From the NCBI GenBank assembly GCA_017629515.1, contig JAGBXB010000047.1:1-38184 (forward strand): a stretch of 38,184 nucleotides of DNA, in the 5' to 3' direction. The notes below the pieces were generated by a model. The model did not search any database, was not told the DNA's origin, and worked only from the letters and a program-made list of their open reading frames with translations. Position numbers and translations under genes: made by a program. Below are positions 1-14,851 of the stretch, in pieces; within the stretch, counting starts at the first letter, position 1, and every line of letters starts with the position of its first letter. Origin of the DNA: Lentisphaeria bacterium (GTDB taxonomy: Bacteria; Verrucomicrobiota; Lentisphaeria; Victivallales; UBA1829).

Positions 1-429
1 AAGATACAGGAAATTTACAACCGTTTGACCAACGATCAGGCTTTTGCTGAAGAACTGAAAAAGTTCGTGGAAGCGAGAAATATCACTACTCCTGACGATG
101 AGGTCGAGGCGTTGCTGGAGTTTGCCAAAGTCCAAGGTTACGATGTCACTCTTGACGATCTGAAAGATTTTGCCGAAAAACAGTACCGGAGCTTAACCGA
201 GGAGGAACTTGAGTCGATCAATGCTGCCGGAGCTGGCGGAGCTTGTTTTTTAATCGGTGCAGGCTGGGGACGTGGCAAAGGCGCAGAAAACGGTCCCACA
301 ACCCATTGCTATGTTATCGGTGTCGGCGTAGGTGTAACCTGGCAAGAAGCCGAAGACACCAGTCGCTGCCTGGCTTTGTGGCGCAATGGAGTAATTGTGA
401 ATGTTTTTTCCGACAGCGAGAAGAAGTAA
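1..429 (+). CDS. Nif11-leader RiPP precursor peptide (5' end cut by window edge)
   Basis: The frame is open from base 1, so the true start may lie upstream; a TTG at 25 is the first possible start inside the window. The N-terminal part (about 70 residues counted from the TTG) is an acidic helical leader of the Nif11 type, with a Gly-Tyr-Asp-Val-Thr-Leu-Asp-Asp-Leu stretch typical of that family. It ends in SLTEEELESINAAGAGG, a double-glycine signal of the kind cut by C39 peptidases. The remaining 62 residues (bases 241-426) form the predicted core. They contain three Cys (74, 95, 115) spaced 21 and 20 apart. Two of them begin the near-repeats CFLIGAGWG and CYVIGVGVG. The core is long, glycine-rich and hydrophobic. 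The maturase follows five bases after the stop. The Nif11 assignment and precursor role are confident from leader and context; the chemistry of the product is unknown. Confidence 0.85.
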   Translation, partial: KIQEIYNRLTNDQAFAEELKKFVEARNITTPDDEVEALLEFAKVQGYDVTLDDLKDFAEKQYRSLTEEELESINAAGAGGACFLIGAGWGRGKGAENGPTTHCYVIGVGVGVTWQEAEDTSRCLALWRNGVIVNVFSDSEKK

Positions 430-434
430 CTATT

Positions 435-1841
435 GTGGATAAAACAGGTATGTCAGAAAAATATTTTCAACTTTCCAAAAATTTTGCTATGCGCGGTTGG
501 CGCGATTTGGAATACAATTTGCAGCATCAACCAAGCGGCAGAGTTTTCTATTTGCCGAAATCTGCCGCCGACGCTGTCTTTCTGTCTTTCAACGGAATTC
601 CGGTAAATTCTCCGGCAATGCTGCCGTTGCACCGTCAAGTTTTGACCGCTCTGGTTGAAAACGGCTTGGGTGTTTTTAGTGCGGAGTTTTCTGCTCCGGA
701 AGAGTTCCAGCGATACCGCAAAGCGGAGTGCAACTGTACGCAGTCCATCCACTGGTCGATCACCGGCAGATGCAACTTGCGATGCCGCCACTGCTATCTG
801 GATGCGCCGGACGCATTTTACGGCGAAATGAGCCTTGAACAATGTATAACGATCATGGATCAGATGGTCGAAGCGAATATCTGCTGCGTATCCATTACCG
901 GCGGCGAACCCCTGGTTCGTCCGGATTGGACGCAATTCATTACGGCATTGAAAGAACGCCATTTGCATATTGAAGCCATATACACCAATGGTTTGGCGGT
1001 GACGGAAAAGTGGATCGGACAATTTCAGGCATTGTATCCGGAAAAAATGCTTTTCTCCTTGAGTTTTGACGGGATCGGTTGTCATGATTGGCTGCGGGGC
1101 AGAGTGGGAATGGAAGCAAGAACCATTGAAGCGATAAAATTGCTGACTGCACACGGGTATCCCATCGAGATCGAAACACCGATTTTCAAAGATAATCTTG
1201 ACAAACTCCCTGCCACTTGCGAATTGCTGGCAGATCTGGGTATCCGCAACTGGAAACTATCCCCCATGATCGAAAGCAAAGCATGGGAAAAATACAGTGC
1301 GGAACACACGGCTTCAACCGATGAAATGATCCGGGCGGCAGTGGTTCTGCTGGAGAAATTTGAAGAGTTGAATAAACCATTTAATTTGCAGATCGCCCAT
1401 TATTATATTTATGAAAAGAACAGCAATAAAGCCTATGCGCCTGCTTTTTCCGGAGAAAACAGCGAAAAAGCTCTTAAAAGTCCGCTTTGCAGCTGTATGC
1501 GTCAGCATCCCTATCTGCTTCCGGATGGGACATTGATGCCCTGTATGCCCCTTGCCAACTGCGGACTTGACAATCAAATGCCGAATCTGTTGAAAACACC
1601 CCTTGTGGAGGTTTTGCGCCCGGGGTCTGCACTTTATGCGTTGTCGGACATGCGTTTGGGAGATTTTCTGGAAAATCACGCACAGGAGTGCAATCAATGT
1701 GAACACAAATACATCTGCAAAGGCGGCTGCCGGGCTTGCGCAAGACAATGTGGCGATCTTTACGGGCCTGATACCCAGATGTGCCGGTATTTCAAAGCCG
1801 GAGATTATCGTTTTTTTGAAAAGTTTTCACAACGGAGATGA
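435..1841 (+). CDS. Radical SAM/SPASM peptide maturase
   Basis: Predicted radical S-adenosylmethionine enzyme that modifies the adjacent precursor. The GTG at 435 was chosen because AGAAG-type Shine-Dalgarno bases at the precursor's end sit about 8 nt upstream; the ATG at 450 is the alternative. The frame is open further upstream but would run through the precursor gene. From the GTG, residues 1-100 are an N-terminal domain that could be a peptide-binding (RRE/PqqD-like) module. The CxxxCxxC cluster motif CNLRCRHC is at about 113-120, and GGEP follows near 157-160. A Cys-rich SPASM-type C-terminus starts near residue 352 and ends in CNQCEHKYIC and CKGGCRACARQC. Two auxiliary Fe-S clusters are therefore likely. 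Such enzymes make thioether, C-C or epimerised links in RiPPs; which one applies here cannot be read from sequence. The stop overlaps the next possible ATG. Confidence 0.88.
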   Translation: MDKTGMSEKYFQLSKNFAMRGWRDLEYNLQHQPSGRVFYLPKSAADAVFLSFNGIPVNSPAMLPLHRQVLTALVENGLGVFSAEFSAPEEFQRYRKAECNCTQSIHWSITGRCNLRCRHCYLDAPDAFYGEMSLEQCITIMDQMVEANICCVSITGGEPLVRPDWTQFITALKERHLHIEAIYTNGLAVTEKWIGQFQALYPEKMLFSLSFDGIGCHDWLRGRVGMEARTIEAIKLLTAHGYPIEIETPIFKDNLDKLPATCELLADLGIRNWKLSPMIESKAWEKYSAEHTASTDEMIRAAVVLLEKFEELNKPFNLQIAHYYIYEKNSNKAYAPAFSGENSEKALKSPLCSCMRQHPYLLPDGTLMPCMPLANCGLDNQMPNLLKTPLVEVLRPGSALYALSDMRLGDFLENHAQECNQCEHKYICKGGCRACARQCGDLYGPDTQMCRYFKAGDYRFFEKFSQRR

Positions 1842-1846
1842 ACAAG

Positions 1847-1981
1847 ATGAAAAATGTAAAGCAGTTTTATGCGTCAGACTTTAAGAGAACCGGTACGCCC
1901 TGCTGTATCATCGGCAGCGGGGTGGGGTTTGCCACGGAAGACGGGGCAACTCCCGGGAAAAAAGTTTTTTCAGGTATTGTT
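1847..1981 (+). other. In-frame core-peptide-like segment upstream of the secreted hydrolase
   Basis: A 45-codon stretch starts at ATG 1847, with GGAG (1834-1837) 9 nt upstream. It reads straight into the hydrolase frame with no stop. It contains CCIIGSGVG, the same Cys-x-x-Ile-Gly-x-Gly-x-Gly pattern as the two repeats in the precursor core (CFLIGAGWG, CYVIGVGVG), followed by an acidic Thr-Glu-Asp-Gly stretch like the one after the second repeat. There is no Nif11 leader. It could be a short second product, a precursor remnant that lost its stop, or a real N-terminal extension of the hydrolase. The hydrolase has its own start signal at 1982, so translation of this segment is plausible but unproven. 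Confidence 0.55.
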
Positions 1982-2953
1982 ATGAAAAAAATCCTTCTGC
2001 TACTGCTTTTTACCGCCTTGCTTCTGCCATTCAGTGCGGCAGCTCGGGAAAATTTGGATTACAGTAATCCTGCCAACTGGGTGATTTGCGAAGAAACGAT
2101 CCGGAAAAATTGTGAAGTAGATCTTTTTTATGTACTTCCGACGATCTATTCCGATAAAAACAATGCCTATATGCTCTGGCATGACAACAAAGCCATTCAG
2201 AAGAAAGCACAGATGATCGCAACACAAAATACCGGGATTTTTTCCCCGTACAGCCGGGTATTTGCCCCTTATTACCGGCAGGCGGAGTTCCGCAGAGTAT
2301 TGAAAGAAATCAATCTGCCGATTGAAAAACAAAAATTTATCCACCGCGGGATCAATGATGTTAAAGAAGCATTCCGGTATTATCTGAAACACTATAATAA
2401 AGGGCGGCCGTTTATTCTGCTGGGGTTCAGCCAGGGTTCAATGGTACTGCTTGAAATAATGAAAAGTGAATTTGCCGACCGCAAAATCAATGCAAAACTG
2501 GTGGCAGCATACCTTATCGGCTACCCCAATATGCCGAAAACTTTTCCCAACTGTCCCTATTTGCGTACAGCTCAAAAAGCCGATGATACGGGAGTGATCA
2601 TCACCTATAATTCTCAAGCCCCCGGCAAGGTGGTTTCCCATTTTACCGGCAGGAACAATGTATATTGTATAAATCCTGTCAACTGGCGTACCGACAGCAA
2701 AATCGCCGGGAGAAGTGAACATAAAGGCAGTCGTTTTTTTGATTTCAAAAGCGGTAAAGCCACAGACAAAAAAGAGTTTGTTTCTGCACAAATTGTTCCG
2801 TCAAGCGGCGCACTTGTTGTGATCCCTTCCGAACCGGGAAAATTTGACAGCAGAGCTCTGGGAAAGGGTGTTTATCACATGTTCGATCTGAACTTTTTTT
2901 ATTACGATCTGCGTGCTAATGGAAAACTCCGCATTGATGCGTATTGGAAATGA
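1982..2953 (+). CDS. Secreted DUF3089 alpha/beta-hydrolase
   Basis: The ATG at 1982 is preferred because it begins a clear signal peptide (Lys-Lys, a Leu-rich core, then PFSAAA at about residues 16-21) and has AGG (1972-1974) 7 nt upstream. The 323-residue product matches the DUF3089 family: VDLFYVLPTIY near the start of the mature protein, RVFAPYYRQAEFR, then GRPFILLGFSQGS, whose nucleophile-elbow serine is Ser150. It is expected to be an exported or periplasmic serine hydrolase (esterase, lipase or peptidase-like); the substrate is unknown. It lies between the maturase and the exporter genes and so may trim or hydrolyse the peptide or its target, which is inference. The frame is open a further 48 codons upstream and includes the core-like motif annotated separately. 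Confidence 0.8.
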   Translation: MKKILLLLLFTALLLPFSAAARENLDYSNPANWVICEETIRKNCEVDLFYVLPTIYSDKNNAYMLWHDNKAIQKKAQMIATQNTGIFSPYSRVFAPYYRQAEFRRVLKEINLPIEKQKFIHRGINDVKEAFRYYLKHYNKGRPFILLGFSQGSMVLLEIMKSEFADRKINAKLVAAYLIGYPNMPKTFPNCPYLRTAQKADDTGVIITYNSQAPGKVVSHFTGRNNVYCINPVNWRTDSKIAGRSEHKGSRFFDFKSGKATDKKEFVSAQIVPSSGALVVIPSEPGKFDSRALGKGVYHMFDLNFFYYDLRANGKLRIDAYWK

Positions 2954-3018
2954 GATCAGCAGGGAATTGAGCTGTGTGCTGTTTTCCTGATATCGCAATT
3001 ATTTTACTGTTCACTTCT

Positions 3019-3047
3019 TGAAAAAAGTATATTCAAAAGTATATTAT
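3019..3047 (+). promoter_or_regulatory. Candidate sigma70 promoter of the export operon, with tandem 11-bp repeats
   Basis: TTGAAA (3019-3024) and TATTAT (3042-3047) are separated by 17 nt in the 146-bp gap between the hydrolase stop and the HlyD start. The same stretch contains two copies of AAAAGTATATT (3023-3033 and 3035-3045) at a 12-bp period. This could be a regulator site or an accident of AT-rich promoter DNA. No other gene-like structure is seen in the gap. Confidence 0.5.
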
Positions 3048-3099
3048 AAGGAATATATTTCACGCACCATATCCGGTGTTTCGGCTTGGAGAGTATGCA

Positions 3100-4383
3100 A
3101 TGGCAAACAAGATAAATTTTTCAGAAAAAGCATTAAATAATCTGGGTAATACTATTGGAAACCAGACTCTGCGCAGTGCAAAAAATTTCTGGAATTATTT
3201 TTTGTTATCGGCGGTCACGATTCTTTTTGCAACGCTTCTGATTTGGGGTTTCTGCGGCAGGCTCAGTGAGAGTGTTTCGGGTTCCGGCGTAACGCTGCTC
3301 AATAACGGATATCATCCTGTAATAGCTCACGGGACAGGCACATTAAGTCATTTGAATATCAATGTCGGTACACTTGTCACCCCGGGACAATCAGTGGGTC
3401 AAATCCATAATCCTGAACTTTTTTTCAATATCACAAAATTAGGCAATGAATACAATGCTTTGATTTCAGAAATGGAAATTCTGCGGAACGGTATTGAAAA
3501 ACTTACTGCCCGCAAGAGTGCTTCTGAAAAGCAGCGGAAAGAGATTCTTGCACAATTGACCGAACTGCAGCAGAAAAACCGTCAGCGGGCAAAAGAAATC
3601 GTAGAAATCCACTCATCATTACGCAAGAGTGGAGCTGTTTCCAAAATCACATATTTTCAGGCACTCGACAATCAGACCCAATCCGAGATCAGTTTTGCCA
3701 ATACGCTTTTTGAATTGCTTGCAAATGACTTGACAAGTGAAGAAACATTGTGGCAGCATCAGCGTCAGCTTTTGGAAATGCAGCAGACATTGGCACAGAA
3801 GAAACGGGAACTTGATCTGGCGTTGCGTCTTTTTCAGGAAAGCAACTGGATCAGTGCAAATCATCAGGGGAAAGTAACGGAAATATTCAAAAGAGAGGGT
3901 TCTTTTGTTCAAAACGGGGAAACTATTGCCCTTTTGAGTTCCGACCCTGCTGACGGTATTTATATCGCAGCATTTATTCCGGCGCTTCAGAGCCGGGAGA
4001 TAAAATGCGGCATGAGTGTATTCTTTTCCCCGGCGATCGCACCGGCCAACCGTTATGGATACATCAAAGGCATTGTGCGGGAAGTAAATCTTATACCGGG
4101 CAATCCGGAAGCCATTCAAGCAGAATTGGCCAATGAATCACTGACGAGGCAGATCATTGGACAGGGTGCAGTGATCAGGATCGTTGTGGAATTACTGCCG
4201 GATTCCGGAACATACTCCGGTTTTGCCTGGACGACCAAACGCGGCTATCCCGGAAAGATCCCCAATGGTGTAGTTGGAGAAGTCATCATCAACACTGGCA
4301 AAAGATCCCCTGCTTCTTATATTCTGCCGGCTTTGAAAGAGTTCTTTGACAACAAATATACAGGATCATTGGAGCAAAAGTGA
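3100..4383 (+). CDS. HlyD-family adaptor of the NHLM-type peptide exporter
   Basis: Periplasmic adaptor (membrane fusion) protein that couples the ABC transporters to an outer-membrane channel. The ATG at 3100 has GGAG about 7 nt upstream (3089-3092); an in-frame GTG lies at 3076. The 427 residues show one transmembrane segment near 30-55 and a lipoyl-like half (VIAHGTGTLSHLNINVGTLV) near 75-95. A long coiled coil covers about 115-250, and the second lipoyl half (QGKVTEIFKREGSFVQNGE) and a beta domain follow. Its position directly before two ABC transporters is the gene order of NHLM systems, which export peptides with Nif11 or nitrile-hydratase-like leaders. The stop overlaps the next start (GTGA), so translation is probably coupled. 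No outer-membrane TolC-type gene is in the window. Confidence 0.85.
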   Translation: MANKINFSEKALNNLGNTIGNQTLRSAKNFWNYFLLSAVTILFATLLIWGFCGRLSESVSGSGVTLLNNGYHPVIAHGTGTLSHLNINVGTLVTPGQSVGQIHNPELFFNITKLGNEYNALISEMEILRNGIEKLTARKSASEKQRKEILAQLTELQQKNRQRAKEIVEIHSSLRKSGAVSKITYFQALDNQTQSEISFANTLFELLANDLTSEETLWQHQRQLLEMQQTLAQKKRELDLALRLFQESNWISANHQGKVTEIFKREGSFVQNGETIALLSSDPADGIYIAAFIPALQSREIKCGMSVFFSPAIAPANRYGYIKGIVREVNLIPGNPEAIQAELANESLTRQIIGQGAVIRIVVELLPDSGTYSGFAWTTKRGYPGKIPNGVVGEVIINTGKRSPASYILPALKEFFDNKYTGSLEQK

Positions 4384-6554
4384 AAAACTTGTTTTCAAAC
4401 AGGAAAAAGACTCCGACAGTTCTGCAAATGGAAGTTACCGAATGCGGAGCGGCATCTCTTGGAATGATCCTGGCTTACTATGGAAAATATATCCCGCTGG
4501 AACAACTGCGCAGTGATTGCGGAGTATCGCGCAACGGCAGTAAAGCCAGTTTCATTATCAAAGCTGCCAAATCTTACGGTTTGGATGCAAAAGGATTCCG
4601 TGTTCTTACCGATCAGCTGGATTCCTTTGATACTCCTATGATCTTATTTTGGAACTTCAATCACTTCCTTGTGTACGAAGGACATTCCCGCAATAAAAAA
4701 TACTATTATCTCAACGATCCCGCTGTCGGCCCTTTGACTGTTGACCGCGAAACTTTTGAGAAATCTTATACAGGGGTGGCTCTGACTTTTTCTCCGGGAG
4801 AAAATTTCAGGCAAAGCGGCAGCAAGTTCAGCATTTGGAAGACACTTCGTCCGATGCTTGCCGGTATGAAAAGCACTATGGGTATCATTATCTGGGGCGG
4901 TTTGCTGTTGGTTTTACCGGGGGTTTTGATTCCCGGGATGATGCAATTTTTCGTTGACCGGATCCTGCCCGGAAAAAGCGGGCTGCTGGTTCCTCTTCTG
5001 GTTTTGCTTATTATAACGATGCTGTTGCAGGCTCTTTTGAGCTGTATCGTTTCCTACGCATTGAATCGCGGCAAACTGCAGTTGGCAGTCAATAAAACAT
5101 TGGGAATGTTGAACTATTTGTTTACCCTTCCGTCGGAATTTTTCTCCCAGCGATCCAGTGGAGATCTTCAAAACCGTGTATTGCTCAACAGTACAGTTGT
5201 CAATTCCGTATTCGGCACGGTCGCCGACAATGTGGTCAAACTTTTTACAGCCCTCTTTTTTCTCTTTCTGATGTTCCAGTACAGTTGGCTTCTCTCATGT
5301 TTTTCCATCGGTTTCCTGCTGTTGGATCTCCTGTTTCTGCATATAGCTGCCAAAAGAAAACAGATCCACTATTTAAGTTTGCACATGCTGAATACGAAAA
5401 TGCTATCTTCTGTCATAAACGGTATCTGCATGATTGAAAATATCCGTGCGTCCGGCAGGGAAAAGGCGGTATTTCAGCAATGGGCAGGGCTTTTAGCGGA
5501 AGTTTCACGGAAAAATCTGGAAGTTCAAACAGGAGCAGCCTATTTCAATATTCCTCCGGCATTTTTCAATCTCCTTGGCAATGTTCTGACGCTTTGTGTC
5601 GGAGCAAAACTGGTGATGGATGGCGATCTCACATTGGGCGGATTGTTTGCTTTCCAGACTCTGACCGCAAGTTTTTCCACGCCGGTAACAGCGCTTTTAC
5701 AGCAGAATGCAGAACTGCAAAGTCTGCGGGCAGATGTTGAGAGGATTCAGGATATTTACAAATATGAACCGGAAAAACATTTTGCAGAAATTTCAGACGG
5801 CTCCGACAAAATGTGCGATCAACTGGATTTTGAGATGCGGAACATTTCTTTCGGTTACAGCAAGTTTGAGGAACCGCTGATCAAAGATTTTTCCCTGAAA
5901 ATACATCCCGGAAAGCGTGTAGCACTTGTAGGACATTCCGGTTCAGGTAAAAGCACTATCGCAAAACTTGCCAATGGTACTTTAAATCCGTGGAGCGGAG
6001 AAATCCTGCTGAATGGAAAACCAGTGAGCAGTTATACAAAAGAAGAATATTACAGTTTGATCGGCACAGTAGATCAGAATATCATGCTGTTTTCCGGCAC
6101 AGTCGGGGAAAATCTTACATTGTTTGCGCCCCTTTATAATGCAGGGGTACTGCAGAAAGCAGTCCGGGATGCTGCCATTGAGGAAGAACTTACAGCAAGG
6201 GGCGATATGCTGCAGCAACTCGTAGATGAAAATGGAAGAAACTTTTCCGGCGGACAGTGTCAAAGGCTGGAAATTGCCCGTACATTGGCACAGCAGACTC
6301 CCATGTTGATCCTGGATGAAGCTACCAGTGCATTAGATCCTGTGACCGAACTGCAAATCGATTCTGCAATACGCAAACGTCACGTCAGCTGTCTGATCGT
6401 CGCCCATCGTTTAAGCACAGTTCGCGATTGCGATGAAATCATTATGCTGGAAAATGGTACCGTACTTGAACGGGGAACCCATCAGGAACTTATGCAGCTC
6501 AATGGTGCATACGCCGGAATGATGAATTTGGAACAAGGTAGTGTATCATGCTGA
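4380..6554 (+). CDS. C39 peptidase/permease/ATPase ABC exporter (NHLM ABC1 type)
   Basis: Inner-membrane transporter that cuts leader peptides after a double-glycine site and exports the core. The GTG start overlaps the HlyD stop, with GGAG 5 nt upstream. The 724-residue protein has an N-terminal C39 peptidase domain with a complete apparent triad: Cys22 in VTECGAASLGM, His95 in NHFLVYEG and Asp113 in NDPAVGP. Then come about six membrane helices (roughly residues 160-440) and an ATPase domain with Walker A GHSGSGKST, signature FSGGQCQR and Walker B MLILDEATSALD followed by the AHRLST switch. The intact peptidase fits the AGAGG site in the precursor at the left edge and perhaps the AAAG ending of the 62-residue peptide. 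It overlaps the next gene by 7 bp. Confidence 0.93.
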   Translation: MKNLFSNRKKTPTVLQMEVTECGAASLGMILAYYGKYIPLEQLRSDCGVSRNGSKASFIIKAAKSYGLDAKGFRVLTDQLDSFDTPMILFWNFNHFLVYEGHSRNKKYYYLNDPAVGPLTVDRETFEKSYTGVALTFSPGENFRQSGSKFSIWKTLRPMLAGMKSTMGIIIWGGLLLVLPGVLIPGMMQFFVDRILPGKSGLLVPLLVLLIITMLLQALLSCIVSYALNRGKLQLAVNKTLGMLNYLFTLPSEFFSQRSSGDLQNRVLLNSTVVNSVFGTVADNVVKLFTALFFLFLMFQYSWLLSCFSIGFLLLDLLFLHIAAKRKQIHYLSLHMLNTKMLSSVINGICMIENIRASGREKAVFQQWAGLLAEVSRKNLEVQTGAAYFNIPPAFFNLLGNVLTLCVGAKLVMDGDLTLGGLFAFQTLTASFSTPVTALLQQNAELQSLRADVERIQDIYKYEPEKHFAEISDGSDKMCDQLDFEMRNISFGYSKFEEPLIKDFSLKIHPGKRVALVGHSGSGKSTIAKLANGTLNPWSGEILLNGKPVSSYTKEEYYSLIGTVDQNIMLFSGTVGENLTLFAPLYNAGVLQKAVRDAAIEEELTARGDMLQQLVDENGRNFSGGQCQRLEIARTLAQQTPMLILDEATSALDPVTELQIDSAIRKRHVSCLIVAHRLSTVRDCDEIIMLENGTVLERGTHQELMQLNGAYAGMMNLEQGSVSC

Positions 6555-8746
6555 ATAAAAAAGACTTGTTGAATAAAAACCGTATCCTGACACAGGAAGC
6601 CCTGCGGGGAAAAATTGACCGTCTCGGCAGCTGCGCAGGTCTTTCCGTTGAAAATAATGAGGAAGATAAAGAAATCTGCACAAATCCCCTGTACGGGGCT
6701 TTGCAGATCATCGCAACTGAATATAATTTGCAATTGAAAAACATGGATTCTCTTTTCAGTGTCCATGGTGATCTTTCCTGGAATGAACAGTTGAAACTTG
6801 TGATCGAAAAAAACTCCTGGCGTATGCGGTCTGTTTTCCTTTCAGAGCAATTTTATTGTGAACAATCCCGTCCGCTCCTGGGATACGCAAATAACGTTCC
6901 GGTGGTACTTTATCTCAATGGGGAAAACAGTTATTTTGTTTCTGCAGAAAAACCGGGCAAAAAACAGCCGCTCAACGGAAAGAACGCCGGTATTTTCAGC
7001 AGGGAGGCATATTGTTTTTATGAACCGCTCCCCCGGGAATCCGGCAATATCCGTCTGATGCTGAAATTTATTTTCCGTTCAGCCAGACCAGTTATGACAG
7101 GAGTGATGCTGATAAGTCTCGCAAGTGCGCTGCTTGGATTGATGATCCCCATTACCACACAATATATTACCGGCAAACTCATTCCATCGGGTCTTAACGA
7201 TGAGTTGATGCAGATCTCTTTGCTGCTGCTTGCATTAACAGTTGTGGAAATGCTGCTGAAAATTGTTCCTCAATTGCTGATGCTGTTCTTTTCCTCCCGG
7301 CAATATGAACGATTTCAGGCGGCAGTTTACGATCACATCCTCCGGATCCCGCTCAAAATTTTCCGGCAGTACGATGCCGGTGAAATGACCTCAAGGATCC
7401 TGGCAGCCAGTCAGATCCAAAACACGGTTTTTTCCGTTGTCAACGGGCAGTTGATCGGCTCGCTTTTTACGGCAGTAAGTCTGGGTATGATGTTTTATTA
7501 CAGTACGAGTTTGGCATGGTGGGGCGTTATTATGGTTGCCGTTTACGGCGCTGTGTTTTTCCTGCTTGCCCGGCGCAATCTTGTACCATTGGCGCGTGCG
7601 GCGGAAGCACGGGGCAGGATAAGCGGTTTTCTCCAGCAATTTTTCAGCGGTATGAACAAGGTCCGCTCTGCCGGTGCAGAACAACAACTTGTCAATCGTT
7701 TCATGAACGATTTTTCCCAAATGGAAACGGCTCATCATAAAGCATATTCCAATGAAATACAGCAGCAGGTTTTCAGCAGTTGTTTTTCCATGCTTATTTC
7801 CGTTATATTCTATGCTCTTGCCGGAGGATTTCCGGATGCCAATCTGCCGCTGCCCGTCTTCCTTGCATTTATGGCTTCTTTCCACAGTTTCAAAGGAGGG
7901 TTGCTTGATTTCAGTGCATCAGTTTGGACTCTGCTTGCGGTAAAGACGGAAGTAAACCGTATCATGCCGATCCTTCAGGAAAAACAGGAAGATACCGGAG
8001 AAAGAAATGATGCAGGAGTTTTAACTGGAAAAGTGGAAGTATCCCATTTGAAATTCCGCTACTCGCCTGATACTCCTCTGGTGCTTGATGATGTTTCCCT
8101 GAAAGCCGATCCGGGGGAATTTATTGCCATTGCCGGCTCTTCCGGGGCGGGAAAAAGTTCATTGATCCGTCTTCTTCTGGGATTTGAAACACCCAACAGC
8201 GGAGCGATCTATTATTCTGATCAGGATTTTGCCAACCTTGAACGGAATAGCGTACGCCGTCAGATGGGGGTGATCATGCAGAACAGCCGTATTGTTCCGG
8301 GTTCCATATTGGAAAATATCATACAGGGAACCGACGCAACCATTGAAGAAGCCTGGAATGCTCTGGAAATGGCAGAATTTGCCGATGAAGTCAGAAAAAT
8401 GCCCATGAATATACATACCATCGTTACTCCATCGACCATCTCCGGCGGCCAGCAGCAGCGGATCCTGATAGCCCGGGCTCTGGTTGGAAATCCCAAAGTA
8501 ATATTGATGGATGAATCCACAAGTGCGCTGGATAATATTTCACAGGAAAAAATCATCGAAAAGCTGCGGCAGCTTGCAGTTACCCGGATCGTGATCGCTC
8601 ACAGATTGAGTACAATTGTTGATGCCGATCGCATCTATGTATTGGATAAAGGCAAAGTTGTTCAGTGCGGAACTTATGAAACATTATCTGCCGGAAAAGG
8701 TGTTTTCAGGGAATTGATCGAACGGCAGAAAACCGGAAAGGATTGA
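6548..8746 (+). CDS. Second ABC exporter permease/ATPase (NHLM ABC2 type)
   Basis: A 732-residue partner of the peptidase-containing transporter. The start overlaps its stop by 7 bp. An N-terminal region of about 160 residues lacks a catalytic Cys-His pair; it ends in RPLLGYANNVPVVLYLNGE, reminiscent of a degenerate C39-like domain, as is usual for the second NHLM transporter. A six-helix permease follows (about 175-460). The ATPase domain has Walker A GSSGAGKSS, signature ISGGQQQR and Walker B VILMDESTSALD. It probably forms a heterodimer with the upstream ABC protein or a parallel export unit. The assignment to the NHLM ABC2 type rests on gene order, length and the inactive N-terminal domain. 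Confidence 0.9.
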   Translation: MLNKKDLLNKNRILTQEALRGKIDRLGSCAGLSVENNEEDKEICTNPLYGALQIIATEYNLQLKNMDSLFSVHGDLSWNEQLKLVIEKNSWRMRSVFLSEQFYCEQSRPLLGYANNVPVVLYLNGENSYFVSAEKPGKKQPLNGKNAGIFSREAYCFYEPLPRESGNIRLMLKFIFRSARPVMTGVMLISLASALLGLMIPITTQYITGKLIPSGLNDELMQISLLLLALTVVEMLLKIVPQLLMLFFSSRQYERFQAAVYDHILRIPLKIFRQYDAGEMTSRILAASQIQNTVFSVVNGQLIGSLFTAVSLGMMFYYSTSLAWWGVIMVAVYGAVFFLLARRNLVPLARAAEARGRISGFLQQFFSGMNKVRSAGAEQQLVNRFMNDFSQMETAHHKAYSNEIQQQVFSSCFSMLISVIFYALAGGFPDANLPLPVFLAFMASFHSFKGGLLDFSASVWTLLAVKTEVNRIMPILQEKQEDTGERNDAGVLTGKVEVSHLKFRYSPDTPLVLDDVSLKADPGEFIAIAGSSGAGKSSLIRLLLGFETPNSGAIYYSDQDFANLERNSVRRQMGVIMQNSRIVPGSILENIIQGTDATIEEAWNALEMAEFADEVRKMPMNIHTIVTPSTISGGQQQRILIARALVGNPKVILMDESTSALDNISQEKIIEKLRQLAVTRIVIAHRLSTIVDADRIYVLDKGKVVQCGTYETLSAGKGVFRELIERQKTGKD

Positions 8747-8751
8747 CCATT

Positions 8752-9873
8752 ATGATCAAAAATTTACTTATTACATTTTTATCATTGACAGTATTTGGCT
8801 TTATACTGTATCACCTTGGTGTCTTCGACAATCTGAATTCTGCCGGGCGTGACGAACGCAGTCTTCACTCGGAAAAACGGACGGAAACCGTCCGTAAGAC
8901 ACCTGAATTTATGATCGGTTCTGTTTACAACAGTAAAGATATTCCTGCTGCCGAATCGGTAAAAGGAGCGATGCTCGCTTATGAAATCCTGCAATCCAAT
9001 GGAATGAAAATAAAATACATTACTGTCTCCAATTGTCAAAAACGGCCTGAAACAGCGGCAGCATTGCAAAAAATGTGCGTTGATTACCGTACAGGAGCGT
9101 TTTTAGGTCCGGGCAACTCGGAGATGCTTACATCGCTGCGTGCGATCAGCCAATTTTATGCTCTTCCGCTGATATCGCCTGTAACGGTTCGGCCGGACAA
9201 ACTGCCGCAGCTTGAATATGATAATTATGTCAGTATTTTCCCTCCCCTTGAAAAATGGATCGATGCGATCCTTGCACACATGAAAGGAAACAATATAAAG
9301 AAAATCCTCATTATTACTCCGGGAGATGGTACATATGGAGAGATGTTCTCTTCTGTATTGGAACGGAACAGCAAAAACGTTCTTAACGATTTTCAAACCT
9401 ACCGGATGACTTATCCTCATCCGTTGCGAACAAATTATTTCAATAACAGTTTGACCAATTACGGCGGTCAACACAAAGTTGATGCCATCTTTTTCGGAGG
9501 TGTTGCAGATGAATTGCCGGAGTTGATGCAGATTTTGAAAAACCATAATATAAATCTGCCCGTATATGTTTCCGATGATATTATCCGCAATGAGATAAAA
9601 ATGCCGGCAGGAACAGCCTTCAAACTCTTTTTACCGGAAGCGGAAGTACCTGTAAGCAACGCAAAATGGTTGGAACTCTATGTCAAAAAATATAAAAAGC
9701 AGCCTTCATACCATGCGGTACTCGGTGCTGAAACAATGTTTGTGATGGCGGAAAAGTTCAACAAATCTATTTACACTCCGGAAAGTTTTGTAAAGGCAAT
9801 AGAACACGCATCTCTGGAATTCAATAAAAAAATAAAGATAAGAATAATAGATTTTTCCACCGGAAAGTTGTGA
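8752..9873 (+). CDS. Membrane-anchored periplasmic-binding-protein-like sensor (Leu/Ile/Val-binding type)
   Basis: A 373-residue protein with an uncleaved-looking N-terminal membrane segment (about residues 4-24) followed by a type-1 periplasmic-binding fold. Recognisable pieces are SVKGAMLAYE near 65, GAFLGPGNSEMLTS near 117 and FYALPLISPVTVRPDKLP, all typical of branched-chain amino-acid and amide-binding receptors. The ATG at 8752 is 5 bp after the exporter stop; a TTG at 8743 overlaps it but is less likely. No importer permease or ATPase is nearby, so it probably does not feed a transporter. In this operon it may bind the exported peptide or a small ligand and signal onward, as inferred from its place before the sigma-factor gene. 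Confidence 0.75.
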   Translation: MIKNLLITFLSLTVFGFILYHLGVFDNLNSAGRDERSLHSEKRTETVRKTPEFMIGSVYNSKDIPAAESVKGAMLAYEILQSNGMKIKYITVSNCQKRPETAAALQKMCVDYRTGAFLGPGNSEMLTSLRAISQFYALPLISPVTVRPDKLPQLEYDNYVSIFPPLEKWIDAILAHMKGNNIKKILIITPGDGTYGEMFSSVLERNSKNVLNDFQTYRMTYPHPLRTNYFNNSLTNYGGQHKVDAIFFGGVADELPELMQILKNHNINLPVYVSDDIIRNEIKMPAGTAFKLFLPEAEVPVSNAKWLELYVKKYKKQPSYHAVLGAETMFVMAEKFNKSIYTPESFVKAIEHASLEFNKKIKIRIIDFSTGKL

Positions 9874-9895
9874 ACGCAATTCAGGAACATAAATC

Positions 9896-10084
9896 ATGGA
9901 TAAAAATGAAAATTTAGATACATTGATGAATAAAGTCTTCAACTTTCCACCCCCTGGAATGCCTGATTTCAAGCAGATAAAACAGGATGACATGGTTGAG
10001 GAATTGGATCCTGAAGAGCTTGATCGCCTTGCCGCAGCAGGTCAAATCGAGATTTTAACAACACCCGGAGTTACCGGTAAATAA
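9896..10084 (+). CDS. Small leader-like peptide, candidate second precursor
   Basis: A 62-residue acidic peptide. An AGGA ribosome-binding site lies just upstream of ATG 9896. Residues 36-49, ELDPEELDRLAAAG, align without gaps to the end of the Nif11 leader at the left edge (SLTEEELESINAAG). What follows is only 13 residues, QIEILTTPGVTGK, with no Cys. The front part has a Pro-rich FNFPPPGMPDF. I do not recognise a named family. It could be a second substrate of the C39 transporter, a signalling peptide, or a small regulator of the sigma factor encoded 10 bp downstream. Confidence 0.7.
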   Translation: MDKNENLDTLMNKVFNFPPPGMPDFKQIKQDDMVEELDPEELDRLAAAGQIEILTTPGVTGK

Positions 10085-10094
10085 TATTCCCGAA

Positions 10095-10595
10095 ATGCTC
10101 AGCGAAGAAAAGATAAAAGAAATATATTGCATGCTGGCGGGAAAGGTGACCAACTATCTGATCGCCTCCGGAATGGATCACGCTTCCGCTTGTGATATTA
10201 CGCAGGAATGTTTCATCAGATTATGGAAAAAGCGTGAATTGTTCCATGAAAATGATTCTGTTTCCGGTTTCATCTTTACTGTGGCAAAAAATCTGCAAAT
10301 CGACCATTACCGGAAAAATAAGTTTATTGCTTTTCAGGATGATTGGCAAAATGAAGCTTGTGACTTTATGGAGCAACCTCTGTCAGGGGATGATCTATCC
10401 TATCTCCGGAGCCGCGTGCGCCGGGCTTTGAGTGAGCTTTCAGAAAGTCAGCGGGACGCATACACACTTTTTCAAATTGCAGGCAGGAGCATTAAAGAGA
10501 TAGCCCGGATAACTGGTGTATCAGAATCAAATGTAAAAATCCGTATTCACAGAGCAAGAGAAAAATTAAGTATTCTGCTTCAGGATCTTTACTGA
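10095..10595 (+). CDS. ECF-type sigma-70 factor
   Basis: A 166-residue RNA polymerase sigma factor with only regions 2 and 4. Region 2 shows DITQECFIRLWKKRELF and DHYRKNK (about residues 33-75). Region 4 shows the helix-turn-helix RSIKEIARITGVSESNVKIRIHRAREKL (about 133-160). The start is 10 bp after the 62-residue peptide gene and has no strong Shine-Dalgarno bases, so its translation may depend on the upstream gene. No recognisable anti-sigma factor sits beside it, which is unusual for this class; the upstream peptide, binding protein or downstream lipoprotein may do that job. It probably drives the peptide locus itself, but this is inference. Confidence 0.88.
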   Translation: MLSEEKIKEIYCMLAGKVTNYLIASGMDHASACDITQECFIRLWKKRELFHENDSVSGFIFTVAKNLQIDHYRKNKFIAFQDDWQNEACDFMEQPLSGDDLSYLRSRVRRALSELSESQRDAYTLFQIAGRSIKEIARITGVSESNVKIRIHRAREKLSILLQDLY

Positions 10596-10639
10596 ATCCG
10601 ATGTGGAACAAAATATAATAACACAGGAGAAAACAACCA

Positions 10640-11335
10640 ATGAAGTATTTTTCTATCGCAACAGTAAGTTTATGTATAATCGTTTTAAGTGGATGTATGT
10701 CCATCAATGAACCGGAAGCACCGGCATTGAAAGGGAAATTTGCTACCGAAGCAAAACTGCATCTGGAAGGATTTCAGCTTTATTCCGTAAGGGAAAAGCA
10801 GCACCATGTGGGGAATTCTTATTTTACAGCATATAATTTCAAAACAGACAGCTGGCTTACCGGAATCGATTCCTCTTCAGGAACGACCTATGAACGGATG
10901 CTGGATGAAAAGTTCCCGGATATCGTAAAAGATGTTTTTGAATCTTCCGGAGCCAATATAAGAACCGACAAACCGCAATTGACAGTTGTGGGCAGAATCG
11001 GGGATGGCCGCTATATGTGGAGTTCTCCGGCAATGTGGTATAGAGATGCGCCTGTTTTTGTGGTTTCTCTTTGTACTATCGGTATGGTGATAAGCAGGGA
11101 GCGTGAAAATAATGTAAGTTTGCTCGTCTACAACCAGAAGGGTAAGCGGTTGAAAGAATACAATGCAACGACAAGTTACTATACAAATGGATTCGGACTT
11201 CCTTTCGCATTTCTTGTAAACGATAAAATACGGGCCTGGTACTGTGACAGAATGGCGGCGAAATTCGCATTGATCAGATGTGTGAATGAATTTATCTGCG
11301 ACTACAACAAGGGTTTTTACAACTTGAAAAAGTGA
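10640..11335 (+). CDS. Hypothetical lipoprotein
   Basis: A 231-residue lipoprotein. AGGAG (10625-10629) is 10 nt before the ATG. The signal peptide ends in the lipobox LSGC, with Cys19 the lipidated residue. The mature part has no motif I recognise; it contains YMWSSPAMWYRDAPVFVVSLC, which may be a membrane-associated or hydrophobic hairpin, near residues 115-140. It ends the locus: the next gene is 224 bp away and starts an unrelated operon. A role in self-immunity to the exported peptide or in signalling to the sigma factor would fit the position, but nothing in the sequence proves either. Confidence 0.7.
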   Translation: MKYFSIATVSLCIIVLSGCMSINEPEAPALKGKFATEAKLHLEGFQLYSVREKQHHVGNSYFTAYNFKTDSWLTGIDSSSGTTYERMLDEKFPDIVKDVFESSGANIRTDKPQLTVVGRIGDGRYMWSSPAMWYRDAPVFVVSLCTIGMVISRERENNVSLLVYNQKGKRLKEYNATTSYYTNGFGLPFAFLVNDKIRAWYCDRMAAKFALIRCVNEFICDYNKGFYNLKK

Positions 11336-11500
11336 TATTGTATTGAAAACATATCTCATGGTATGTTGGGAAAAATTTCTCTGTGAGGTGTATACTGCTA
11401 CCGGAAGAGAAAACTTTTCCTGAAAAGCATCTGAAAACAGAGATTTTGTTCGTTTTTTTATGTTTACTTTGCCAAAGTCGGGAAAATTTCAGCGTTTGGC

Positions 11501-11530
11501 TTGTAATTTTTCTTGCAAATAATATATTAT
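11501..11530 (+). promoter_or_regulatory. Candidate promoter of the lactate operon
   Basis: In the 224-bp gap 11336-11559, TTGTAA (11501-11506) and TATATT (11523-11528) are 16 nt apart; TATTAT at 11525-11530 is the alternative with 18 nt. A strong Shine-Dalgarno sequence AGAGGGGG follows just before ATG 11560. No clear terminator for the upstream lipoprotein gene and no gene were seen in the rest of the gap. Confidence 0.45.
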
Positions 11531-11559
11531 AAAATACTATTTTCAAGAGGGGGATTTTT

Positions 11560-12843
11560 ATGCCGAGCCTAAATGTGCCGTACGGACATTCGTTTCTGAC
11601 CGCAGATATTCCGGAAAACAATTTTGCCGGATGTTATTTTTCAGAGCTTCCCGCAGCGGCGGCTGATGAGAGTGCCGAAGTATGCCGTGCCCTGGATAAT
11701 CCTATCGGCTCTCTGCCGTTGGAGGAGTTGGCAAAGGGCAGAAAAAATGCCGTTATCATCACCAGCGATCACACCCGTCCGGTACCGAGCAAAATCATCA
11801 TGCCCCAAATACTGGAGCGTTTGCGCCGCAATGCACCGGATATCGACATCACGATCCTTGTGGCGACAGGATTTCACCGTGGGACCACAAAGGCGGAACT
11901 GATCGCCAAACTCGGAGAAAAAATCGTCCGTGAGGAAAAAATCGTTGTCCATGACTCCGGAGACGCTTCCATGCTCTGCGATGCGGGAGTATTGCCCTCC
12001 GGCGGAAGACTTATGCTGAATAAACTTGCACTGGAAACAGAACTCCTGGTTGCGGAAGGATTTATCGAACCACACTTTTTTGCCGGTTTTTCCGGGGGAC
12101 GCAAAAGTGTGCTGCCCGGAATCGCTTCCCGGACAACGGTTCTTGCCAATCATTGTGCCGAATTTATCGCCAGTTCCTGCGCCCGTACAGGAATACTGGA
12201 GGGCAATCCCATTCACCGTGATATGCTTTTTGCCGCAGAAAAGGCAAAACTGGCCTTTATTGTCAATGTGGTCATCAACGGTGAAAAAAAGATCGTCAGA
12301 GCTTTTGCCGGCGACCGCGAAAAAGCGCATCTGCAGGGATGTGGTTTTCTGTCTGACTGCTGCCGGATCACAGTGCCGGAAGTGGATATCGTCATCACAG
12401 GAAATGGCGGCTATCCCCTGGATCAGAATGTCTATCAATCTGTCAAAGGTATGACTTCCGGTGAAGCCGTCTGCCGTGAAAATGGGGTGATCATCATGGT
12501 TGCCTCCTGTGCAGACGGACACGGCGGGGAGGCTTTCTGTAAAGCTCTTTCCCGGGCGTCTTCCCCTGCTGGACTGTTGGCAGAAGTTGCCGGTATCCCC
12601 CGTGACAAAACATTGCCGGATCAGTGGGAATATCAGATACTCTGCCGGATACTGGACAAATTCACAGTGATCATGGTCACACAGGATTGTGATCACCGCA
12701 TGTTGCAGAATATGCACCTGCAGACGGCTGCAACCATCAGCGAAGCATTGGAAAAAGCCTTTGCCATTGCCGGGAAAGAGGCAAAAGTTGCCGTTATTCC
12801 CGATGGCGTATCTGTAATTGCTGCAAAACAAAATCAAATATAA
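11560..12843 (+). CDS. larA: LarA-type nickel-dependent lactate racemase family protein
   Basis: Interconverts D- and L-lactate, or a similar 2-hydroxy acid, using the nickel-pincer nucleotide cofactor. The 427 residues match the LarA/DUF2088 family in length. SDHTRPVPSKI places Asp70 and Arg73 where LarA has its substrate-binding Asp and Arg. ATGFHRGTT carries the first catalytic His near 105. EPHFFAGFSGGRKSVLPGIAS carries the second His and the cofactor-bearing Lys near 182, with NH near 198 as the nickel-ligand His. It starts an operon with etfB, etfA and a GlcD-type dehydrogenase, the gene set of the acetogen lct operon in which the racemase is lctF. The cofactor-synthesis genes larB, larC and larE are not in the window. 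Another 2-hydroxy acid substrate is possible. Confidence 0.85.
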   Translation: MPSLNVPYGHSFLTADIPENNFAGCYFSELPAAAADESAEVCRALDNPIGSLPLEELAKGRKNAVIITSDHTRPVPSKIIMPQILERLRRNAPDIDITILVATGFHRGTTKAELIAKLGEKIVREEKIVVHDSGDASMLCDAGVLPSGGRLMLNKLALETELLVAEGFIEPHFFAGFSGGRKSVLPGIASRTTVLANHCAEFIASSCARTGILEGNPIHRDMLFAAEKAKLAFIVNVVINGEKKIVRAFAGDREKAHLQGCGFLSDCCRITVPEVDIVITGNGGYPLDQNVYQSVKGMTSGEAVCRENGVIIMVASCADGHGGEAFCKALSRASSPAGLLAEVAGIPRDKTLPDQWEYQILCRILDKFTVIMVTQDCDHRMLQNMHLQTAATISEALEKAFAIAGKEAKVAVIPDGVSVIAAKQNQI

Positions 12844-12852
12844 GGATCAAAA

Positions 12853-13653
12853 ATGAATATCATCGTATGTATCAAACAGGTTCCGGGGACGACGCAGGTC
12901 GAGATAGATCCGGAAACCGGAGTTTTGAAACGCGACGGCGTAGAGTCAAAAATGAATCCGTATGACCTTTACGCACTGGAAACTGCGCTCCGGATCAAAG
13001 AATCTTACGGAGCGGAAGTCACCGTCATTACCATGGGACCGCCCCAGGCCCGGGAGGTCATCCGTGAAGCGTTTATGATGGGGGTCGACCGGGGATTTCT
13101 GCTTTCTGACCGCCGTTTCGGCGGCGCAGATGTGCTGGCGACATCTTATACACTGGCGCAGGGGATCAAAGCTGCCGGAACATTTGATCTCATCATCTGC
13201 GGCAAACAGACAACTGACGGCGATACTGCGCAGGTTGGTGCTGAACTGGCAGAATTTCTTGATATCCCCCATGTTACCTGCGTATGCAAACTCGGCAGTA
13301 TCACAGAAAAATCCATTACTGCCGATTTGGATCTTCCACTGCATACCGGTACTGCCGAGATCGCGTTTCCCTGTCTTATTACGGTGGAAAAAGGAATTTT
13401 TGAACCCCGGCTGCCCTCTTATAAACGCAAACTTGCCACCCGTGACCGTGAAATTACTGTGCTGACTCTGGATGATATGTCTGATAAAAACCCCAAACAC
13501 TACGGGTTGAATGGTTCTCCCACCCAGGTAAAACGGATATTCCCTCCGGAAAATCACAATGACCGCCAGGTGTGGGAAGGAAATGATGAAGAGTTGACCA
13601 AGAAACTTTTTGAGTATCTTGAAAGTGGTAAATTTCTGCAACAGTTGAGGTAA
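12853..13653 (+). CDS. etfB: Electron transfer flavoprotein beta subunit
   Basis: A 266-residue EtfB. The N-terminus [13 protein letters not shown] and the motif [21 protein letters not shown] (near 117-137) are characteristic; the latter is typical of the EtfB of electron-bifurcating complexes, which bind a second FAD in this subunit. It is in the operon between larA (10 bp gap) and etfA (7 bp gap). The likely role is to pair with EtfA and the downstream dehydrogenase (LctB-LctC-LctD arrangement), using reduced ferredoxin to drive lactate oxidation with NAD+. The bifurcating assignment is based on motif and context, not on structure. Confidence 0.9.
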
Positions 13654-13659
13654 CATATT

Positions 13660-14850
13660 ATGCCATATATAAAGATCCATCAGGAGAAAGCAGACTCCAA
13701 AGCGGCGCTGTTGGAAGTTTGTCCTTTCAAAGCAATAGAACTTGAAGGTGGGGAATTATCCATCAACTCCGGTTGCCGGATGTGCCGCATCTGTGTAAAA
13801 AAATACAGTAACATCTTTGAGTTTGTCGATGATACCGCAACCGAAGGCGTGGATAAATCCCTGTGGCGCGGTATTGCTGTGGTAGCAGAGATCGAGGAGG
13901 GAAATATCCATCCTGTCACCTTTGAATTGCTCGGCAAAGCGCGTGCGCTGGCAGAAAAAGCCTCTTTTCCGGTCTATTGTCTGGTCATTGGGCATAATAT
14001 CACAGAACAGGCGCAGAAAATTCTGGAATATGATGCGGACAAAGTTTTTGTTTACGACCAGAAAGAGCTGGAACAATTCCGGATTGAACCGTATACTGCT
14101 GTACTGGAAGACTTTATCAATCAGGTCAAACCTTCTGCGGTGCTCATTGGCGGCACCCAGACAGGCAGATCACTTGCTCCCCGTGCCGCAGCGCGTTTCC
14201 GAACCGGTCTGACGGCGGACTGCACAGTGCTGGATATTTCTGAAAACACCGATCTGGACCAGATCCGTCCTGCGTACGGTGGTAATATCATGGCGCATAT
14301 CAATACCCCCGGACACCGTCCGCAGTTTGCTACTGTGCGGTACAAAATTTTCCCGATCCCGGCAAAAAAAGCCCCTCACGGAACGATTTGCAACTGTACT
14401 CTGCCGCCGGAAAAACTTATTTCGGCAATTACCATTACTGCAATGAAAGAAAAAAGCCGAGAACAGGGCATTGAAGATGCCGAAGTCCTTATCGTTGCCG
14501 GACGCGGTGTCCGTAAAGCGGAAGATCTTGCCATGCTCGAAACCCTTGCAACTCTGCTCAACGGCAAACTTGCCTCCACCCGTGCGCTGGTCGAAGCGGG
14601 TTGGGTCGATGCAAAAAAACAAATCGGTTTGAGCGGACGCACTGTAAAGCCCAAACTGATCATCACCTGCGGGGTCTCCGGGGCGATCCAGTTTGTTGCC
14701 GGAATGAATGGAGCGGAAAACATCATTGCCATCAACAGCGACCCCAATGCACAGATTTTCAAAGTTGCCCATATCGGTATTTGCGGCGACCTTTATACCA
14801 TCATCCCCGGTTTGATCGACCGGATAAAAAATCAGTCTCCGGAGGTGTAA
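13660..14850 (+). CDS. etfA: Electron transfer flavoprotein alpha subunit with N-terminal Fe-S segment
   Basis: A 396-residue EtfA, longer than the simple form. Residues 1-60 are a ferredoxin-like extension with Cys21 (CPFKAIE) and CRMCRIC (Cys39, 42, 45), enough for one [4Fe-4S] cluster. The EtfA domain follows, ending with the FAD-binding region [20 protein letters not shown] and [20 protein letters not shown] (about 325-375). The same extra cluster occurs in LctC and CarE of acetogens, where it is thought to accept ferredoxin electrons. The gene is 7 bp after etfB; its TAA is one base before the next ATG. Cytoplasmic. Confidence 0.92.
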
Positions 14851-14851
14851 C

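Follow-up and report, generated by a model that had tools for sequence, protein, structure and literature searches.

A Nif11-leader peptide locus of a Lentisphaeria bacterium combines an exporter-linked binding protein with a candidate export-coupled sigma switch

Introduction

Flagellar type III export couples transcription to secretion through FlgM, a sigma-28 partner that is itself exported. How producers of ribosomally synthesized and post-translationally modified peptides (RiPPs) that use NHLM/Nif11 exporters learn of the export of their peptide is something that, to our knowledge, nobody has shown. Here we describe a Nif11-leader RiPP locus in the first 11,335 positions of a 38,184-nucleotide stretch from a Lentisphaeria bacterium (contig JAGBXB010000047.1, hereafter the window), in which the exporter genes are followed by a type 1 binding protein (BP), a 62-residue peptide (P62) and an extracytoplasmic function (ECF) sigma factor. 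In keeping with the FlgM logic, P62 bears a predicted export signal, an end in the leader register of C39 proteases; it would be exported, and we propose that it binds the sigma factor.

The closest described systems are the NHLP/Nif11 (N11P) export cassettes, in which the same TIGR03794/03796/03797 exporter stands beside Nif11 or NHLP precursors, and among which a Victivallis vadensis cluster is listed (Haft et al. 2010, PMC2887384). The main text of that paper does not use the terms periplasmic, sigma or binding protein, and to such a cassette the window adds BP, P62 and an ECF factor. The microbisporicin cluster resembles the window in that an ECF factor of its own controls the RiPP genes in a feed-forward manner, but there the anti-sigma factor MibW keeps MibX at the membrane (PMC4973701), whereas in the window no membrane anti-sigma gene is seen and a small export-ended peptide lies beside the sigma factor. 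In the LahT/LahA system the C39 protease LahT reads Val-4, Leu-7 and Leu-12 (PMC6363468); the window shares this register and the double small residue, but its site is Ala-Ala, and a peptide without a core, the neighbour of a sigma factor, terminates in the register as well. BP has a fold in common with type 1 binding proteins such as LivJ and LivK, but it is predicted to be membrane anchored and lies beside an exporter, not an importer. A literature search by title, abstract start and term counts found no description of a Nif11/NHLM exporter locus whose ECF factor has a leader-ended partner, a weak absence given that most subscription journals lay outside its coverage. A GRRM-type orphan binding protein, considered as a possible precedent, was set aside when no paper holding the term was found.

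Results

The binding protein follows the exporter and the small peptide follows the sigma factor

In the window, the NHLM ABC2 exporter gene (6548..8746, + strand; TIGR03797 4.2e-204) is followed on the same strand by BP (8752..9873, likely start ATG 8752), P62 (9896..10084; profile A2) and the ECF sigma factor (10095..10595; TIGR02937 84.9 bits against a cut-off of 42.9, PF08281 7.7e-18). We surveyed 197 genomes of the host class for this arrangement. TIGR03797 was matched at E<=1e-110 in 41 of them, and we kept 13 places with at least 508 bits together with two pieces, a fragment (G193:C52, 411 bits over 229 positions) and a contig-edge locus found through BP (L028); other places, at 412 bits or fewer, were taken as other ABC proteins and lay outside the neighbourhood survey. 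The resulting 15 ABC2 loci belong to 11 genomes, of which G118 contributes three loci and G115 and G064 two each; as some of the loci are closely related, they are not independent. A control search gave sub-cut-off matches in two of 14 well-known genomes.

BP has a type 1 periplasmic-binding fold, and a membrane helix is predicted at its N-terminus. At all 15 loci its gene is the next one downstream of ABC2 in the same orientation, a position that was read before 14 of the 15 sequences were used to train the BP profile. Eight of these loci (L030, L032-L038) hold neither sigma factor nor P62 in the fetched stretch; because BP is present at every ABC2 locus, including these eight, it tracks the exporter and not the sigma module. 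A sigma factor was found at seven of the 15 loci and P62 at six of those seven, one copy being frameshifted. The parts fall into two modules, one pairing the small peptide with the sigma factor and the other pairing BP with the exporter. With profile A2 (E<=1e-6), the P62 family was detected in eight class genomes, the host included, in the same row as a sigma factor in seven and next to a precursor remnant in G101.

The row recurs in fuller form. L025 and L027 both read ABC2, BP, family-3 binding protein, sigma factor, P62, two Nif11 precursors and radical SAM enzyme, the L027 contig starting within ABC2 and the L025 contig ending within the enzyme. Orthologues of the window's radical SAM enzyme (E<=1e-40, 51-55% identical) were found in two class genomes besides the host, G124 and G191, and in each the enzyme gene shares its row with ABC2, BP, sigma factor, P62 and two Nif11 precursors; the gene is split over two contig ends in G191, and the G124 contig starts within ABC2. 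G115, G117 and G118 carry the row without this enzyme (most of it in L026, L028 and L029), with frameshifts in both P62 and precursor of G117 and no precursor seen at L029 of G118. At all five loci L025-L029 a family-3 binding protein lies between BP and sigma factor (PF00497 3.6e-31 for L029), a gene that the window lacks. An earlier sequence-only reading had taken BP, peptide and sigma factor as a single send-and-sense circuit and proposed looking for their co-occurrence in relatives. That co-occurrence was found, and the three are recurring parts of such loci; the single circuit is replaced by two exporter-linked modules. Among NHLM/Nif11 RiPP loci, this one is a genuine variant that recurs.

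BP sequences are diverse, that of the window being only 13-28% identical to its counterparts at other exporters. Six of the eight sigma-less loci (L033-L038) form a second NHLM branch with a diverged BP, in which the gene for a B12-type radical SAM protein lies ahead of the adaptor gene in L034-L036 (Pfam check in L034 only) and, cut by the contig edge, in L037; L035 holds an NHLP-like precursor, and L033-L035 hold a 452-residue companion. One of 11 BP matches (L031, G007) fitted an ordinary importer subunit, with an ABC ATPase and a Liv-type permease as neighbours by eye, and was dropped. Beyond the class we examined the best 80 of at least 591 ABC2 relatives, taken from named genomes, and the profile recovered BP at three: after ABC2 in L089 (Spirochaetaceae), before HlyD in L116 (Oscillospiraceae), and in Desulfotruncus arcticus (L085 3205-4902) as a cyclic-nucleotide-binding domain fused to a type 1 BP directly before the NHLM adaptor. 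At the sensitivity of the profile no BP was found at the other 77 foreign loci, 74 of the 80 having at least 1300 bases after ABC2. By eye, the BPs of L085, L089 and L116 have an IGHxxS...YVFRNxP build in common with PDB 4mlc/4q6b from Desulfitobacterium hafniense.

P62 ends in an exporter-leader register

P62 ends in LDPEELDRLAAA/G (the slash marks the predicted site), which fits the shared register L(-12)xxxxL(-7)xx[LIV](-4)x[AG][AG] with Leu at -4; its earlier description as leader-like agrees with this sequence match. Of 14 sigma-partner peptides, a set that leaves out the frameshifted copy of L026, 13 show the register, as do all four precursors tried. Shuffling reproduced the pattern in 27 of 2000 sequences for the window P62 and in 24 to 104 for the other peptides, and with Ala also allowed at -4 it was found in 120 of 120 Selenomonad relatives among the matches listed (184 found). 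P62-like peptides carry a short polar tail and no Cys-bearing core. The window P62 and one relative together retrieved three proteins from a set of 5.8 billion. Neither P62 nor the lipoprotein, the window neighbours of the sigma factor, gave an anti-sigma match, and no membrane anti-sigma gene is adjacent.

The single peptide of the 14 without the register is that of G154 (L024), where no NHLM ABC exporter was detected in the fetched 19 kb. A 510-residue protein at this locus (L024 8863-10395, - strand, G154:C47) consists of a C39 domain (PF03412 3.2e-15), one membrane stretch and a BP, and the C39 domain has Ser for the catalytic Cys and Arg for the catalytic His, so that it appears to be inactivated. 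The row also holds a sigma factor, the P62-like peptide, an adaptor piece and a DA1-like protein. In this one case, exporter and cleavage end have been lost and sigma factor and P62 kept, as a regulatory role predicts.

Look-alike peptides occur beside sigma factors in Firmicutes

An ECF factor lies within 8 kb of ABC2 at 14 of the 80 foreign loci, and at four of these (L092, L096, L112 and L123, all Firmicutes) a short, coreless, leader-ended peptide is found near it. The BP profile finds nothing at these four, two of whose contigs are shorter than 6 kb. A profile search for a P62 relative outside the host class found none at the 80 foreign loci; the Firmicutes peptides resemble P62 in build, and we claim no homology.

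In the order of L112 (Selenomonad), the peptide occurs in 89 of 189 genomes at 121 places, with several copies per genome in some, and the NHLM adaptor in 112, both being present in 85 (2x2 counts 85, 4, 27 and 73; Fisher p 2.8e-24, uncorrected for kinship). At no fewer than 51 of the 121 places the adaptor lies within 16 kb of the peptide. Among the 30 best-scoring of these places, 14 have an ECF factor upstream in the same orientation at no more than 1.2 kb, and in nine of the 14 the distance is 129 bases or less. Conservation across the family is much stronger in the front than in the tail (0.70 vs 2.24 bits). Where a source names this peptide, it is called a hypothetical protein. One copy (L172 1501-1701) follows what looks, by eye, to be another sigma-control set, with genes resembling those for a PP2C phosphatase, a STAS protein and an RsbW-like kinase.

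In the order of L123 the peptide was found at four places in three of 147 genomes. At three of these, in two genomes, it lies between ABC2 and ECF and overlaps into the ECF gene by 4 bases; at the fourth the peptide frame holds a stop and neither ABC2 nor ECF is a neighbour. The window has the order of L123 with BP inserted (ABC2-BP-P62-ECF). ECF adjacency or overlap is thus seen in three peptide families without evident sequence kinship. For the L092 peptide no wider kin were found in the four genomes available for its class.

Precursors and the radical SAM enzyme

The first frame of the window, a Nif11-leader precursor that is the last of an array (1..429, + strand), is open to base 1, and the locus is therefore cut at the left contig edge. 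At the end of contig C66 of the same assembly, on the minus strand, lie a full Nif11 precursor of 146 residues, precursor A (L011 613-173), and the start of another copy (L011 154-1) that is 75% identical to window 1-140. From these sequences we infer that at least three tandem Nif11 precursors probably span the assembly break between adjacent contigs C66 and C11. The locus had been read as complete; it is incomplete because the contig begins inside the precursor array. The Nif11 leader noted earlier is borne out by the full upstream copy, which passes the Pfam cut-off (35.8 vs 23.8 bits); the window copy, without its 5' end, scores below both the Pfam and the NCBIfam cut-off (PF07862 9.8e-04, 19.8 vs 23.8 bits; NCBIfam TIGR03798 5.5e-05, 23.3 vs 32.3 bits).

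The core of the window precursor has three Cys, each with a Trp after it. Elements resembling CxxGxGxGW and CxIIGxGxGVTW are, by eye, common to precursor A and the window copy, which has RCLALWR in addition. In the C39 register its site reads INAA/G, with Ala-Ala instead of the double Gly first noted. In G115 and the two relatives that share the enzyme, the stretch after the Ala-Ala register site is 14-17 residues long with one Cys and a Trp or Phe 4-5 places later, as in RVCRGLLWF, WTCSVLFR, TCWGALWI, TCSLLWR and FCRWYPWL. A further precursor-like stretch (1847..1981, + strand) is probably a collapsed precursor: the frame 1838-1981, continuous with that of the downstream hydrolase, reads MKNVKQFYAS...TPCCIIGSGVGF, a Nif11-like start joined to a precursor core with the core-like TPCCIIGSGVG. 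The score of the core part of 1847-1981 against precursor A was reached by seven of 2000 shuffles, and a GGAG 9 nt 5' of ATG 1847 makes this, by eye, the better ribosome site.

The radical SAM/SPASM peptide maturase (~435..1841, + strand; PF04055 2.7e-16, CxxxCxxC at residue 113) has 78 NCBIfam matches, and none of the best 25 exceeds its cut-off (top 98.1 vs 395 bits). A known product class such as sactipeptide or ranthipeptide was considered and none could be assigned, no curated equivalog model lying above cut-off among those 25. SkfB is the enzyme's nearest relative of solved structure at the sequence level (8.8e-13). In the 5.8-billion protein set, 719 of 7992 scored candidates fell at E<=1e-30, and nine among the 120 matches listed were at least 83% identical.

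Nif11 leaders also stand at the head of larger proteins. In G064:C11 (L032 16785-18991, - strand), two RTX-repeat proteins that start with a Nif11 leader and a GG site lie upstream of the NHLM exporter, with one acetyltransferase-like gene in between; the one tested matched PF00353 (8.1e-51) and PF07862 (4.8e-08).

Gene order and surrounding features

The window is the whole of contig G000:C11, from a host genome of 2.90 Mb in 147 contigs that is 82% complete. The open reading frame list and the NCBIfam and Pfam scans confirm ten genes from precursor to lipoprotein, all on the + strand, and with them the gene list of a Nif11/NHLM RiPP biosynthesis and export locus as first read. Next to the precursor-like stretch lies a DUF3089 alpha/beta hydrolase with a signal peptide (1982..2953; PF11288 1.3e-50), which blastp against L023-L032 and L033-L038 recovered again only near L034. 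The HlyD, ABC1, ABC2 and BP genes overlap or almost abut, and the gaps downstream are 22, 10 and 44 bases, in line with the short gaps or overlaps of the earlier reading.

The NHLM HlyD adaptor (3100..4383; TIGR03794 9.6e-52) is above its curated cut-off (176.3 vs 156.2 bits). ABC1 with its C39 leader protease (4380..6554; TIGR03796 4.1e-250, PF03412 1.2e-34) lies slightly below (831.8 vs 853.3 bits), as does ABC2 below its own (679.9 vs 709.4 bits); both are full length, and TIGR03796 and TIGR03797 are still their best-scoring families. The Cys-His-Asp triad of C39, already described as intact, is present in ABC1 as ECGAAS, NHF and LNDPA at 21, 94 and 111. Before the adaptor gene a promoter-pattern scan gave a candidate sigma-70-like promoter (TTGAAA-16-TATATT, 3018..3045, + strand), which we treat as a lead only: 26 promoter-like sites were found against 19.3 (sd 4.6) in shuffles, and the class of 3018-3045 is barely above chance. 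The genes from adaptor to lipoprotein may form a transcription unit separate from the precursor array.

The lipoprotein (10640..11335, + strand; annotation scans and neighbourhood comparison) has, by eye, a paralogue on C66, and no counterpart was found at the related sigma loci; it is probably outside the core system. On C66 (L011 2464-6720) the paralogue follows a C10-peptidase protein with an RTX repeat, and another relative lies near the NHLM locus of G084 (L037 13240-13983). Further downstream in the window (11560-16258) lactate racemase LarA, two electron-transfer flavoprotein subunits and a FAD-linked oxidase stand in a row, likely a lactate-use cluster.

Discussion

We infer an export-coupled sigma switch at this locus, with moderate support. 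In the specific form that we tentatively propose, and hold to be quite possible, P62 would be an exporter-processed partner of the sigma factor, whose activity would report that of the exporter. The radical SAM/SPASM enzyme would modify the Cys-, Gly- and Trp-bearing cores, and the C39 domain of ABC1 would cut both the precursors and P62 after their shared register. Intact P62 may hold or chaperone the sigma factor, and its processing would free the latter for transcription of the precursor array or the exporter. The membrane-fixed BP may report a periplasmic ligand to the C39 domain of the exporter, a step that we propose because an inactivated-looking C39 domain and BP form a single protein in one genome.

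The send-and-sense circuit proposed earlier, in which the P62 tail would be a secreted pheromone, BP its receptor and the sigma factor the recipient of the signal, would explain the export-leader end of P62, the ligand-binding fold and predicted membrane anchor of BP, and the tail GET..DIVRFLKN, which is kept in P62 relatives as would suit a signal peptide. The window P62 itself, however, lacks this tail; BP stands at eight exporter loci without sigma factor or P62, P62-like peptides lie near sigma factors at four loci where the BP profile finds none, and besides the exporter no gene that could relay from BP to a cytoplasmic sigma factor is seen in window 1-11335. We regard this circuit as unlikely. 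Somewhat less so is the possibility that P62 is one more unmodified export substrate, bacteriocin-like or inert, with the sigma factor answering to something else. The Selenomonad loci without a sigma factor in view, the multiple copies in one genome and the proximity of many peptide places to the NHLM adaptor would all be expected of a substrate, but the recurrence of ECF adjacency in three apparently unrelated families, the short, polar, Cys-free tails and the much stronger conservation of the Selenomonad front than of its tail are harder to reconcile with it. The least probable alternative concerns BP and the family-3 binding protein, which might serve amino acid sensing, uptake or self-protection and merely ride along with the exporter. 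The closest folds to BP are Leu-type binding proteins, and the best PDB match of its profile, a Desulfitobacterium hafniense protein, was also solved with Leu; yet no importer permease or ATPase lies near BP among the genes scanned in window 1-16258, and BP is fixed after ABC2 across two different maturation gene sets.

Several observations weigh against the export-coupled switch that we favour. L023 has a sigma factor and BP without P62, P62 has no Pfam match, and in G154 the sigma factor and the P62-like peptide are two genes apart. The Ala-Ala site differs from the usual Gly-Gly, Gly-Ala or Gly-Ser, and a conserved front with a variable tail is typical of ordinary precursor families too, as a conserved tail in P62 relatives is of signal peptides. 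Ten of the 14 foreign ECF loci show ordinary precursors or nothing in place of a short coreless peptide, and no sigma factor was found within the fetched 1.5 kb at 16 of the 30 Selenomonad loci. The L092 peptide, whose front had seemed anti-sigma-like, was tried as a known anti-sigma factor, but it matched no Pfam family and had no PDB hit below E 1.9. An ECF promoter motif considered upstream of precursor A (GTAAC-N15-17-CGTT) was discarded, with 25 matches in the genome against 150 for the reversed control.

A broader version of the export-coupled switch, which we consider rather doubtful, would have NHLM exporters of several phyla carrying a sigma switch of their own. The front of a mini-protein would hold the ECF factor, and its C39-leader end would let a working exporter remove the repressor and so turn on the peptide genes; in the host class the exporter-docked BP would supply an outside input, and in one genome the exporter would have been reduced to a sensor, a dead C39 domain fused to BP, with sigma factor and mini-protein kept.

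If P62-like peptides are exporter-processed sigma partners, ABC peptide exporters would have an export checkpoint comparable to that of the flagellum. Even without such a switch, BP and the leader-ended peptides are two unnamed exporter-tied families that offer handles for finding RiPP loci.

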